Below, piece by piece: positions 44,681 to 49,489 of a stretch of 64,000 nt of DNA. The DNA comes from Sphingobacteriaceae bacterium. Its GTDB lineage: Bacteria > Bacteroidota > Bacteroidia > Sphingobacteriales > Sphingobacteriaceae. A program made the position numbers and the translations under genes. Position 1 is the stretch's first letter, and each line of letters starts with the position of its first letter. The notes under the pieces are model-generated. The model saw only the letters and a program-made list of their open reading frames with translations, was not told the origin of the DNA and searched no databases. Location: NCBI GenBank assembly GCA_029266635.1, contig JAQSWM010000006.1, positions 1 through 64,000 on the forward strand, read 5' to 3'.

Positions 44681-44710
44681 TTTGCCTTTTTAAACTTTTA
44701 TGTACATTTG
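44681..44710 (+). promoter_or_regulatory. Predicted promoter of the pheA leader
   Basis: TTTG (44681-44684), 18 nt and TACATTTG (44703-44710) match the Bacteroidota promoter. Transcription would start near 44715 and give a leader of about 145 nt before pheA. Placed this way, the leader peptide start codon lies about 10 nt from the transcript start. Confidence 0.65.
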
Positions 44711-44726
44711 GCGCAACAACAAAAAA

Positions 44727-44789
44727 ATGAAGTTCACTTACGCATATTTCTACGGTTACTTTTACTACACCAGTGAGAGCCGGGGCTAA
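44727..44789 (+). CDS. Phe/Tyr-rich leader peptide of the aromatic operon
   Basis: A 20-codon ORF encodes a peptide with six Tyr and three Phe (core FTYAYFYGYFYY, residues 3-14). Nine of 20 residues are the products of the pathway whose genes follow. It lies between a good promoter and an intrinsic terminator, just before pheA. This is the pattern of a transcription-attenuation leader: ribosome stalling at Phe/Tyr codons when charged tRNAs run low would alter RNA folding. The peptide is likely not functional itself. Confidence 0.8.
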   Translation: MKFTYAYFYGYFYYTSESRG

Positions 44790-44850
44790 TTTGCGTTAAC
44801 AGATAAAAAATAACGAAAAGTCCCGGCCCAAGAAGCCGGGATTTTTTTTT
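44753..44850 (+). promoter_or_regulatory. Predicted transcription attenuator for the aromatic operon
   Basis: The terminator pairs TCCCGGC (44821-44827) with GCCGGGA (44835-44841), followed by nine T. An alternative antiterminator pairs GCCGGG (44779-44784, last codons of the leader peptide) with CCCGGC (44822-44827), with an inner helper hairpin CGTTA/TAACG (44794-44798 and 44811-44815). CGGTT (44753-44757) may pair with AGCCG (44778-44782) to sequester region 2. A ribosome finishing the peptide covers region 2 and lets the terminator form; a stalled one frees it. Confidence 0.75.
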
Positions 44851-44859
44851 GCCACAGCA

Positions 44860-45690
44860 ATGCAACCAAAACGAATAGCTATTCAGGGAATAAGGGCTTC
44901 CTTTCACGAAGAGGCGGCTTTTAAGTTCTTCGGCGAAGGGATCAAAACTATTGAGTGTAACTCCTTCCGCCAAACCTGTGAGGCTTTGAAGAATAAAGAA
45001 GCTGATTTCGCCGTAATGGCTATCGAAAACTCAATTGCCGGCAGCATTTTACCGAACTATTCGCTGTTGCGAGATTATCATTTCACCATTGTAGGTGAGG
45101 TTTATCTTTCGATCCAATTGCACCTGATGGGGCTGCCTGGGGTGAAGTTCGAGGATGTGAAGGTGGTGGAATCGCATCCTATTGCTATCCGCCAGTGCGT
45201 CGATTTCTTTTACGAATACCCAAACATCCAGGTAAAAGAAAGCACTGATACTGCAGCCTGCGCCAAGAAAATCCGGGATGAGCAGCTTACGGACACTGTT
45301 GCTATCGCAAATATGCTGGCGGCAAAGTTGTATGGGCTCGAAATACTTGAGCGCAGGATAGAATCCAACAAGAAAAATTATACCCGCTTCCTCATCCTCA
45401 CCGAAACAGCAAAAGCGCAGAATATTGAAGCTAACAAAGCTTCCCTGAGCTTCCAGGTGGGAAATGAGGTAGGTTCGCTGGCTAAGATACTGAACATCTT
45501 TGCAGAGCAGCAGGTCAATCTCAGCAAAATACAGTCAATGCCTGTGCTGGGCAAACGCAATGAATACAACTTTTACGTGGATATAGAATGGGCAGACCAG
45601 AAGGCTTATGAAACTGCAATCCGGCAGGTTCTGAAGTATGCTGTGAACTTTACGATTATGGGCGAATACCTGAAGAATGACGATGTGTAG
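44860..45690 (+). CDS. pheA: Prephenate dehydratase
   Basis: PheA turns prephenate into phenylpyruvate, the committed step to phenylalanine. The 276-residue single-function enzyme has the catalytic domain at about 3-180 (RIAIQGIRASFHEEAAFKFF, then FAVMAIENSIAGSILPNYSL) with the T-R-F active-site motif in NYTRFLIL. An ACT domain follows (about 195-270; GSLAKILNIFAEQQVNLSKI). The usual ESRP Phe-binding motif reads QSMP here. There is no fused chorismate mutase; that activity is in the next gene. Control is by the attenuator upstream. Confidence 0.95.
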   Translation: MQPKRIAIQGIRASFHEEAAFKFFGEGIKTIECNSFRQTCEALKNKEADFAVMAIENSIAGSILPNYSLLRDYHFTIVGEVYLSIQLHLMGLPGVKFEDVKVVESHPIAIRQCVDFFYEYPNIQVKESTDTAACAKKIRDEQLTDTVAIANMLAAKLYGLEILERRIESNKKNYTRFLILTETAKAQNIEANKASLSFQVGNEVGSLAKILNIFAEQQVNLSKIQSMPVLGKRNEYNFYVDIEWADQKAYETAIRQVLKYAVNFTIMGEYLKNDDV

Positions 45691-45695
45691 ACAAA

Positions 45696-45791
45696 TGTTC
45701 AGTCGTTATTGGTTCATTAGTTAATGATCCATAGAAGGTACCCCCAACCGATACTAAATACTCACTATTAAATACTAAATACTCGACACTA
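45696..45791. repeat. Two-armed heptad repeat element between pheA and aroG-CM
   Basis: The left array reads as heptads TGTTCAG, TCGTTAT, TGGTTCA, TTAGTTA (45696-45723). The right array reads GATACTA, AATACTC, ACTATTA, AATACTA, AATACTC, GACACTA (45750-45791). The arms are only roughly complementary. It starts five bases after the pheA stop and ends five bases before the next ATG, filling the intercistronic gap. Confidence 0.65.
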
Positions 45792-45796
45792 AAAAT

Positions 45797-46912
45797 ATGA
45801 AACTTGACCTAAAAATACAGCCGCTTTCAACATGGTTGCAGCCTGTAAACCCTAACAAACCTATTGTAATTTCTGGCCCTTGCAGCGCCGAAACTGAAGA
45901 CCAGCTCATATCGACCGCACATTTGCTTGCAAAAACCGGAAAGATCACTGCGCTTCGTGCCGGAATCTGGAAACCCCGCACACGCCCTGGTGAGTTTGAA
46001 GGAATCGGAAGCATTGGCCTCCAGTGGTTGAAAAGAGCCAAAGAAGAAACCGGTTTGCCTACCGCTGTTGAAGTTGCTAACGCGAAACACGTAGAAGAGG
46101 CATTGGCTGCGGGCGTTGATATCCTGTGGGTTGGAGCACGTTCTACCGTAAACCCTTTCACTGTACAGGAAATCGCCGATGCATTGAAAGGTGTTGATAT
46201 TCCTGTGATGGTGAAAAATCCGGTAAATCCTGACCTTTCTTTATGGGTTGGCGCTTTGGAGCGGATCAACAATGCAGGTATTACCAAACTTGCTGCCATT
46301 CACCGCGGATTCAGCTCGTTTGAAAAAAGCGCCTTCCGCAACGAACCAATGTGGGAAATGGCGATCCAGCTTAAAACTCTTTGCCCTGAATTGCCAATCA
46401 TCAACGACCCAAGCCACATCTGCGGAAACCGCGAACTGATCCCATACATCAGCCAAAAAGCTCTGGATATGGACATGCAGGGCCTGATGATCGAATCTCA
46501 CATTGACCCGTCTGTAGCATGGACCGATGCGAAACAACAAGTTACTCCATCTGCGCTTTCGGAATTAATTAATCATTTAACACTGCGCCACACCGAGCCT
46601 CAAAGCCGCGAATTGGTTGACCAGCTGGCTGAGCTTCGTAAGCAAATCGACAAACTGGATGAGCAGATAATTCAAAAAATCGCAGAGCGGATGAAAATTG
46701 CTGAAAAAATTGGTGAGCACAAACGTGATAACGACGTAACTATTCTTCAGGTAAGCCGTTGGGATGAGATCATGCACAAACGCACTTCGTTGGCAAGAGC
46801 TTTGAAACTCGACACAAATTTCACTGCCAAGTTCCTGGAATTGCTTCACGCTGAGTCTATCCGCAAGCAGACCGAGATCATGAACGAAAAACCGGTTTCA
46901 GAAGTAAAATGA
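45797..46912 (+). CDS. Bifunctional 3-deoxy-7-phosphoheptulonate synthase / chorismate mutase type II
   Basis: The protein (371 residues) carries the first enzyme of the shikimate pathway joined to chorismate mutase. The DAHP synthase domain (I-beta type) is at about 10-260, with VISGPCSAETEDQL (about 24-37), AGIWKPRTRPGEFEGIG, and PIINDPSHICGNRELI. The C-terminal chorismate mutase (about 275-365) has LRKQIDKLDEQIIQKIAERM and the KIGEHKRDN motif. The product prephenate would feed PheA. Its last four bases overlap the aroA start (ATGA), so translation is coupled. Confidence 0.93.
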   Translation: MKLDLKIQPLSTWLQPVNPNKPIVISGPCSAETEDQLISTAHLLAKTGKITALRAGIWKPRTRPGEFEGIGSIGLQWLKRAKEETGLPTAVEVANAKHVEEALAAGVDILWVGARSTVNPFTVQEIADALKGVDIPVMVKNPVNPDLSLWVGALERINNAGITKLAAIHRGFSSFEKSAFRNEPMWEMAIQLKTLCPELPIINDPSHICGNRELIPYISQKALDMDMQGLMIESHIDPSVAWTDAKQQVTPSALSELINHLTLRHTEPQSRELVDQLAELRKQIDKLDEQIIQKIAERMKIAEKIGEHKRDNDVTILQVSRWDEIMHKRTSLARALKLDTNFTAKFLELLHAESIRKQTEIMNEKPVSEVK

Positions 46913-48207
46913 GCCTGAAAAGCATCATTCTTTCTAATAAAAAACGGAGCTTCAAAGGCACCATACAGCTTACAGGGTCAAAGAGCGAAAGTAATCGTGC
47001 GCTGATCCTGCAAGCTTTGAGCGGCGGCAATATTGAGGTGAAGAACCTGTCTTCAGCGGCAGATACCGTTACGCTGAATGAAATTCTTCAAAAATTAAGA
47101 GTTCAGAATTCAGAATTAAGAGTTACCGGAGAACACTCTCAACTTTTAACTGACAACTATCAACTCGTAGACATCGGCCCGGCCGGAACTGCCATGCGCT
47201 TCCTGACTGCTTATGCCGCTGTGAAAGATCTCGATGTAACTCTCACCGGCTCTGAACGCATGAAACAGCGCCCCATCGGAATTCTGGTTGATGCCCTGCA
47301 CACGCTGGGCGCACGCATCTGCTACGCCGAGAAGGAAGGGTTTCCTCCCATCAAAATCGAAGGTGGATTTGAGCAACGCACCAAGCGGGTAAAGATTAAA
47401 GGCGATGTAAGTTCACAGTACATCACTGCTCTCCTGCTTGTCGGTCCAACCCTGCCGCGAGGAATTGAGCTGGAGATTGTGGGCAAACTCACCTCCCGAC
47501 CGTACGTGGAGATGACACTGGGACTGATGGAGCAATGCGGGATTCGGTACGAGTGGCTGGACAACAAGATTTACATCGGGCCGCAAGAGTTCTTAAAATC
47601 TCAGCTTACAGTTGAGCCGGACTGGAGCGCTGCTTCGTACTGGTACTCCATAGCGGCACTTGCTGCGGAAGCCGAGATCGAGCTCCCGAACCTACGGAAA
47701 TACAGTCTTCAGGGTGACAGTCGCATCACGGAGATTATGGCAAATTTCGGCATCAGCTCAACATTCACCAACAACTCGGTGATTGTAAAAAAAGAGGGAG
47801 AGACATTCAAGAACAAGCATTTTGATTTGAAGGATTGCCCAGACCTCGCCCAAACCGTTATCGTGTGCTGCGCCGCTTTAGGCTATGAGGCAAACTTTAC
47901 CGGCCTGGAAACACTGAAGATCAAAGAAACCGATCGCGTGTTGGCGCTGCAAAACGAACTCGCTAAGATCGGCGTCAAGCTGATTGAAGACAACTTTAAC
48001 TACACACTGGATTGCAGCGGGCTGCACTTTCCTGAAAAAATAACAATCAAAACCTACGAAGATCATCGCATGGCAATGGCTTTTGCGCCCCTGGCTTTGC
48101 TGATCAACGAAGTTGAAATAGAAGAACCCGAGGTGGTGGCAAAATCATATCCGCATTTCTGGGATGATTTGAAGAAGGCGGGGTTTGAAATAAGTAGTAC
48201 AGAGTAG
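46909..48207 (+). CDS. aroA: 3-phosphoshikimate 1-carboxyvinyltransferase (EPSP synthase) with a repeat-derived insert
   Basis: AroA joins phosphoenolpyruvate to shikimate-3-phosphate. The 432-residue protein has LTGSKSESNRALILQ (about 21-35), GPAGTAMRFLTAY (90-102), GDVSSQYITALLL, KETDRVLALQNELAKIG and DHRMAMAFAPLAL. Residues about 61-86 (QKLRVQNSELRVTG to TDNYQL) are encoded by two inverted arrays of 7-bp repeats, and they sit between a conserved helix (SSAADTVTLNEIL) and the VDIGPAGTAMR core, where I would expect only a short loop. The reading frame is kept, so the enzyme probably works. It overlaps the previous gene by 4 bp. Confidence 0.92.
   Translation: MSLKSIILSNKKRSFKGTIQLTGSKSESNRALILQALSGGNIEVKNLSSAADTVTLNEILQKLRVQNSELRVTGEHSQLLTDNYQLVDIGPAGTAMRFLTAYAAVKDLDVTLTGSERMKQRPIGILVDALHTLGARICYAEKEGFPPIKIEGGFEQRTKRVKIKGDVSSQYITALLLVGPTLPRGIELEIVGKLTSRPYVEMTLGLMEQCGIRYEWLDNKIYIGPQEFLKSQLTVEPDWSAASYWYSIAALAAEAEIELPNLRKYSLQGDSRITEIMANFGISSTFTNNSVIVKKEGETFKNKHFDLKDCPDLAQTVIVCCAALGYEANFTGLETLKIKETDRVLALQNELAKIGVKLIEDNFNYTLDCSGLHFPEKITIKTYEDHRMAMAFAPLALLINEVEIEEPEVVAKSYPHFWDDLKKAGFEISSTE
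47091..47166. repeat. Heptad repeat element inserted in frame in aroA
   Basis: The left array (about 47091-47125) reads AAAATTA, AGAGTTC, AGAATTC, AGAATTA, AGAGTTA. The right array (47137-47164) reads TCTCAAC, TTTTAAC, TGACAAC, TATCAAC. The arms are roughly inverted complements (AGAGTTA versus TAACTCT style) around a spacer of about 11 nt. It has the same layout as the intergenic elements but lies within coding sequence. Confidence 0.72.
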
Positions 48208-48402
48208 TGGGTATTGAGTATTGGGTTAAGAGCTTAGCCCATTCCTGTGCGCAACTGATTATTAACAAATGCTTAGTGGAAATCCATCCCATACCGATAT
48301 GGATATTGATTAGAGCATAGCCCATTCCTGTACACAACTAATTATTAAGAACTGCTTATTGTAAATCCATCCCAATACTCAATACTAAATACCCAATACT
48401 CA
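48203..48402. repeat. Composite element between aroA and aroC: heptad arms flanking a 63-bp direct duplication
   Basis: Left arm 48203-48230: AGTAGTG, GGTATTG, AGTATTG, GGTTAAG. The arm begins within the aroA stop region (TAG at 48205-48207). Right arm 48374-48401: AATACTC, AATACTA, AATACCC, AATACTC, ending two bases before the aroC ATG. Between them two copies of a 63-bp unit (48229-48291 and 48312-48374) differ at about eight positions. No ORF is evident inside. Confidence 0.75.
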
Positions 48403-48403
48403 A

Positions 48404-49489
48404 ATGGCAGGCAACTCATTCGGACAACTATTCCGTATCACAACTTTCGGCGAATCGCATGGCGCAGCTATAGGCGTAATTATTGATGGCTGTCCTCCGA
48501 TGATTGAGGTTGATGAAGCGTTCATCCAGGCTGAGCTTGACAAGCGCAAGCCCGGGCAGTCGCGGATAACCACGCAACGCAAAGAGAGCGACGAGTTTCA
48601 AATCCTTTCGGGAGTTTTTGAAGGAAAAACAACCGGAACGCCTTTGACACTGCTCATCCCTAACGAGGACCAGCGCTCAAAAGATTACGACCATAACAAA
48701 GATTCATTCCGCCCATCGCACGCAGATTACACCTACCAAAGAAAATACGGCATCCGCGATCATCGCGGTGGCGGCCGCTCATCTGCCCGCGAAACTGCTG
48801 CCCGGGTGGCTGCGGGTGCAATAGCCAAACTGTACCTAAAACAACATGGCATAGAGATCTTTGCTCATGTCTCGGGCGTAGGCACCATGGAAGCACCCGA
48901 TCTGCAGATAACAGACTTTGGAACACTTACGGATATCCGCGAAAGCAACCTTGTACGGTGCGCTGATCCGGAACTGGCTGAGCAAATGACAACGTACATT
49001 GACGGTATCCGCAAAGCGGGCGATACTGTCGGCGGACGGGTTGCGTGTATTGTGAAGGGCTGTCCTGTTGGGCTTGGAGAGCCGGTATTTGATAAGCTTC
49101 ACGCAGATTTGGGCAAGGCGATGCTGAGCATAAATGCTGTTCACGGGTTTGAGTATGGTTCAGGCTTTGCGGGATCGGAGATGCGAGGTTCAGAGCATAA
49201 TGATTTGTTCACTGAAGAAGCGGGAGAAGTAAAAACCATTACCAACTTCTCGGGAGGTGTACAGGGCGGGATCTCAAACGGAATGGACATCCACTTCAAA
49301 GTTGCATTCAAGCCCGTGGCTACGATCATGACGAGCCAACCAACAATCGACAAAACAGGAAACAAGACCGAGATTCAGGGCAAAGGCCGCCACGATCCAT
49401 GTGTAGTGCCAAGAGCTGTGGCAATTGTAGAGGCAATGGCCGCGTTGGTGATCGCTGATCATTATTTAAGAAATAAGGTTTACCAATAA
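48404..49489 (+). CDS. aroC: Chorismate synthase
   Basis: AroC makes chorismate from EPSP with reduced FMN. The 361-residue product begins [20 protein letters not shown], the AroC start, and has the signature [20 protein letters not shown] (about 125-144) and [20 protein letters not shown] (about 284-303). Length is normal. Together with the upstream genes it supplies chorismate for the mutase and PheA. It is separated from aroA by the 200-bp repeat element. Confidence 0.96.

Follow-up and report, generated by a model that had tools for sequence, protein, structure and literature searches.

Attenuation ahead of pheA is in principle already known from Escherichia coli pheL-pheA (Rfam RF01859), where an aromatic leader peptide precedes a terminator upstream of pheA and the antiterminator strand is spaced 11 nt from the beginning of the last aromatic codon (13 nt at the locus described here). 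Leader-peptide attenuation has long been described mainly in Proteobacteria and Actinobacteria, and a 2010 survey knew of none elsewhere before its own Firmicutes case (PMC2965389). The aroR leader before aroF of Corynebacterium glutamicum resembles the present locus in carrying Phe and Tyr codons and in controlling a DAHP synthase, but it belongs to an unrelated phylum, contains only Phe-Tyr-Phe, and responds to Phe and not to Tyr (PMC11802643). For Bacteroidetes, the Bacteroid-trp RNA (RF01692) was presented in another 2010 survey as a probable cis-regulatory RNA (PMC2864571). In Flavobacterium psychrophilum, which shares the phylum and the gene pheA with our locus, structured, transcript-mapped elements without an Rfam match were found 5' of pheA and hisG, together with strong clues for leader-peptide attenuation before amino acid operons (PMC9723704); the main text of that report gives the pheA element without a leader sequence or switch anatomy and states conservation for the Flavobacteriaceae only. 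The literature searched, with partial coverage, yielded no description of the switch anatomy, the class-wide spread, or the missing protector hairpin described below.

We analyzed a stretch of 64,000 nucleotides from a Sphingobacteriaceae bacterium, here called the window. The region of interest is bordered on one side by a divergently oriented gene for a flavin oxidoreductase and on the other by pheA, and the nearest named relatives of its PheA come from Hufsiella arboris and Pedobacter sp. BS3 (83 to 84% identity). The original prediction had placed here a promoter, a 20-codon ORF, a GCCGGG/CCCGGC pairing, and a terminator with nine T residues, and a check against the sequence found all of the coordinates correct. 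The features are as follows.

44681 to 44710, plus strand: Bacteroidota-type promoter, TTTG at 44681 to 44684 and TACATTTG at 44703 to 44710 (sequence; recurrence of the -7 motif)
44727 to 44789, plus strand: leader peptide ORF, MKFTYAYFYGYFYYTSESRG followed by a stop codon, 20 codons with 6 Tyr and 3 Phe (sequence; conservation)
44733 to 44768, plus strand: run containing all nine aromatic control codons, the last Tyr codon at 44766 to 44768 (sequence)
44759 to 44779, plus strand: hairpin P1, CTTTTACT at 44759 to 44766 with AGTGAGAG at 44772 to 44779, inside the end of the leader (pairing in relatives)
44779 to 44786, plus strand: S1, antiterminator strand GCCGGGGC, overlapping the final leader codons and including GCCGGG at 44779 to 44784 (pairing with S2; joint change of S1, S2, and S4)
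44794 to 44815, plus strand: inner helix of the antiterminator, CGTTA at 44794 to 44798 with TAACG at 44811 to 44815 (sequence; predicted nascent-RNA fold)
44820 to 44827, plus strand: S2, switch strand GTCCCGGC, common to antiterminator and terminator and including CCCGGC at 44822 to 44827 (pairing)
44835 to 44842, plus strand: S4, 3' arm of the intrinsic terminator (pairing with S2)
44842 to 44850, plus strand: T9 tract of the terminator (sequence; T run retained in relatives)
44860 to 45690, plus strand: pheA, prephenate dehydratase with ACT domain (Pfam PF00800, PF01842)
45797 to 46912, plus strand: DAHP synthase/chorismate mutase fusion (Pfam PF00793, PF01817)
46909 to 48207, plus strand: aroA, EPSP synthase (Pfam PF00275)
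48404 to 49489, plus strand: aroC, chorismate synthase (Pfam PF01264)

These features combine an ORF rich in aromatic codons, an intrinsic terminator before the first gene, and an exclusive antiterminator set by ribosome position, and the leader is very probably a ribosome-mediated transcription attenuator that senses the charging of Phe/Tyr tRNAs. Transcription would start shortly 5' of the leader ATG, with the ribosome following RNA polymerase. When charged Phe or Tyr tRNA is short, the ribosome would stall in the aromatic codons with its front edge at or before approximately position 44779, leaving S1 free to pair with S2; this antiterminator would block the S2:S4 terminator, so that pheA, the DAHP synthase/chorismate mutase gene, aroA, and aroC would be transcribed. 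With plentiful charged tRNA, a ribosome at the stop codon would cover S1, S2 would pair with S4, and transcription would end near 44850. Sensing of Tyr as well as Phe is plausible from codon content, as Tyr codons, sometimes with Trp, are conserved in the leaders. Whereas pheL uses Phe codons only and precedes pheA alone, the window leader is Tyr-heavy and stands before a four-gene chorismate/prephenate operon.

The promoter's -7 motif recurred just 5' of the leader in 51 of 82 relatives, versus 18 of 221 control stretches. The site at 44681 to 44710 escaped a simple sigma-70 scanner, as expected for a promoter of the Bacteroidota -33/-7 type. The leader RNA fold was 3.6 standard deviations below those of dinucleotide shuffles, none of which (0/200) was equally good. 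Inner helices resembling CGTTA/TAACG were seen by eye in relatives. A conserved TATG 3' of S1, which also pairs in the inner helix, was considered as a candidate RNA polymerase pause site.

Of 80 named relatives, 75 have the gene order pheA, DAHP synthase/chorismate mutase, aroA, and aroC, and the others have the first three genes. Promoter-like and terminator-like sites between the operon genes did not exceed chance numbers. Given the conserved order and the chance level of intergenic signals, cotranscription and joint control of the four genes are likely. The intergenic regions also contain repeats: two direct 63-nt copies (87% identical) between aroA and aroC (48229 to 48374), flanked by inverted repeats at 48204 to 48225 and 48371 to 48392, and two head-to-tail 21-nt repeats (ATACTAAATACTC...) directly 5' of the DAHP synthase gene (45751 to 45792), with a similar motif also 5' of aroC.

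Within the Sphingobacteriaceae, the leader was present before pheA in all 82 parsed distinct sequences, with the same strand order and a terminator after it. Three further upstream regions were left out by the parser only for their GTG or TTG start, and the leader is visible in all three. Leaders were 16 to 23 codons long with 7 to 9 Phe, Tyr, or Trp codons, and 29 of the 82 had a Trp codon. Codons that differed by a single base did so most often through synonymous third-position changes (1,319 of 3,401 pairwise differences); second-position differences, Phe/Tyr exchanges among them, were also numerous (1,133 of 3,401). Relatives bore out the expectation of changing codons with preserved aromatic content and of stems that change together. 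When at least six aromatic residues in 12 codons plus a terminator were required, 72 of 76 pheA upstream regions of named relatives qualified, compared with 3 of 390 shuffled upstream regions and 1 of 538 upstream regions of other long ORFs in the relatives. The record of locus L035, which has a Daejeonella-type pheA and leader, is titled as a Legionellaceae MAG; a mislabeled title or a mixed bin is the probable cause.

The family data bear on another reading, in which the hairpin would be no more than a constitutive terminator or a 5' untranslated region structure, with an ORF that is fortuitous or codes for a functional small protein. Leader and S1 overlap in sequence, and conservation of a peptide could preserve S1 without any RNA role. 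However, S1 remains GCCGGGAC-like both in leaders that translate it as Ser-Arg-Asp/Gly and in those that place it behind an earlier stop codon, and its retention 3' of the stop shows that the constraint on S1 is on the RNA. Moreover, the peptide outside the aromatic run varies freely, S1, S2, and S4 covary across families, and neither shuffles nor the upstream regions of other genes yield a leader with a terminator at comparable rates. We consider this reading highly improbable and the Phe/Tyr attenuator before pheA, as originally predicted, to be supported by conservation, pairing, and shuffles.

Pairing statistics were computed from 42 representative family sequences and 500 shuffles. The antiterminator helix S1:S2 was paired in 97.6% of cells and the terminator S2:S4 in 98.5%; sliding the partner by 1 to 3 columns reduced paired cells to 19 to 55% for either helix. 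Both helices beat all 500 shuffles in covariation score and in the share of cells paired. In the home family, pairs changed on both sides were no more numerous than in shuffles for either helix (41 to 43 of 500) because the family stems are so conserved that few sequences carry covariation. In Daejeonella-type leaders, one position changed from C to G in S1, from G to U in S2, and from C to A in S4, with both pairings intact. In other families across the class, the three strands are far more diverged yet still match one another (e.g., TTAGGATTGT/ACAATCCTGA and ACGGGAGG/CCTCCCGT). P1 was paired in 97% of cells in the 42 relatives and persists in two reading frames; its compensatory changes are few, and its conservation holds at the family level only.

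A ligand-binding riboswitch or a protein-bound leader could instead sense Phe or Tyr directly, with the ORF incidental, but no conserved structured domain was seen beyond the short hairpins, and the features best preserved across the class were the aromatic codons and the spacing between them and S1. No Rfam family covered the leader in scans of this region and of 12 loci. The only related matches, all below threshold, were to leader-peptide families, RF01859 (Phe_leader) scoring 22.9 against a gathering score of 55; RF01692 gave no match at an E value of ≤1 in the region and none at the gathering score in relatives' leaders. We regard direct sensing as extremely improbable.

With the established E. 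coli footprint, S1 would start about where a ribosome stalled at the last aromatic codon has its leading edge. Distances to S1 were measured from the first base of the last aromatic codon, which also accommodates leaders with an ORF extending beyond S1. The distance was 13 nt in the window (last Tyr codon), 10 to 14 nt in the 70 family leaders scored, and 10 to 16 nt in 29 of 35 (83%) leaders from other families, versus 11% of shuffles; the equivalent distance in pheL is 11 nt.

We then folded nascent RNAs ending after S2 with ribosome masks, at equilibrium, ignoring kinetics and proteins and using the E. coli value for the ribosome footprint. For the window, a mask at the last Tyr codon gave an antiterminator probability of 1.00, and a mask at the stop codon gave 0.00. 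Among family leaders, the mask at the last aromatic codon left the antiterminator in 70 of 70, and the mask at the stop left it in 0 of 70, with the terminator in all 70. In approximately 7 of 32 leaders from other families, the stop codon lies well past S1, so that a ribosome at the stop would leave S1 uncovered and the passing ribosome must do the work there.

The original prediction had equated the logic with that of proteobacterial attenuators. This was true of the stalled and stop-codon ribosomes, for which E. coli pheL, our positive control, gave the same two answers as the window; it did not hold for the protector pairing, which is absent here in the same calculation. Without a ribosome, the predicted antiterminator probability was 1.00 in the window but 0.00 in pheL, where the antiterminator strand is predicted to be hidden, and it exceeded 0.5 in 69 of 70 family leaders and 26 of 32 others. 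If the protector hairpin is indeed missing, read-through would be the default state of a leader that is not translated, and since the antiterminator is predicted to form in untranslated nascent RNA, an operon whose leader translation is lost should be opened rather than shut. For the complete, ribosome-free RNA, the terminator is predicted to be more stable, so this default-on behavior depends on the antiterminator forming first. The contrary view on this detail, an E. coli-like attenuator in which a protector hairpin causes superattenuation of the untranslated leader, may draw on P1, a family-conserved structure that sits where the coding region ends and looks like a pause or protector hairpin. 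P1 and S1, however, have only one base in common and coexist in the predicted nascent fold, and together with the untranslated probabilities this makes such an arrangement rather unlikely. P1 is a possible but unproven pause hairpin.

Beyond the family, we surveyed pheA upstream regions of the class Bacteroidia, requiring at least six aromatic residues in 12 codons (five were accepted for family f16 only). A leader with a terminator was found in 59 of 78 upstream regions: 24 of 27 from Sphingobacteriaceae and 35 of 51 from elsewhere, the latter representing 15 of 22 sampled families. Shuffles matched in 1 to 3% of trials overall (11 of 390 at five or more aromatic residues in 12). A recognizable leader was absent from three divergent Sphingobacteriaceae members in this survey and from 16 of the 51 other upstream regions, including all seven from family f12 (L117, L120 to L123, L165, and L175), in which the attenuator has probably been lost or replaced. 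Judged by these sequence comparisons, the leader before pheA is a real attenuator element that is widely conserved in Bacteroidia. A locus that carries Flavo-1 RNAs (L137) has the leader, which makes the F. psychrophilum pheA element, as described in the main text of PMC9723704, probably one of the same kind. A candidate second unit at L137 was rejected as spurious, its hairpin being weak.

By the stricter count, 19 of 60 genomes from two other families (f49 and f63; loci L180, L182, L224 to L226, and L246 to L271) have two Phe/Tyr leader-plus-terminator units in series before pheA; the window has a single leader. The spacing from the last aromatic codon to S1 was 10 to 17 nt in 79% of first units and in 76% of those that came last or stood alone, compared with 15% of shuffles. 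For f63, a promoter motif was present 5' of the first unit in 11 of 13 cases and 5' of the second in 0 of 13, and the tandem units apparently lie behind one promoter. Salmonella mgtCBR likewise has two leader-ORF attenuators in series, but these respond to two signals, ATP and proline, whereas both tandem pheA units carry Phe/Tyr codons (PMC3641672).

Two other probable amino acid leaders were noted in the window's genome. A probable His leader peptide (MPLVFTHHMHFDHHPCGDR and a stop codon) lies 126 to 66 bases 5' of hisG (L170), and a probable Trp leader with a GTG start lies 159 to 90 bases 5' of trpE (L171, minus strand), reading NNTTHTQNWWWQLKALRGNVC after the start and followed by the hairpin CCCGGTGCATAAATGCATCGGG and a T run. 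A nonexhaustive search by gene family recognized no Ile/Leu/Val leader near ilv genes.

New here are the class-wide anatomy, the apparently missing protector, and the arrangement of two Phe/Tyr attenuators in tandem ahead of pheA in two further families. Whether Bacteroidia have a default-on layout of their own before pheA across much of the class, with two stacked same-signal attenuators behind one promoter in some families, is in our judgment evenly balanced. If they do, stacked units would multiply the response. The default-on prediction would set this layout apart from the textbook attenuator by a single start-codon mutation. A well-supported pheA attenuator that spans the class offers a concrete test bed for transcription-translation coupling in Bacteroidia, the ribosomes of which have been reported to fail to recognize Shine-Dalgarno sequences (PMC9976891).
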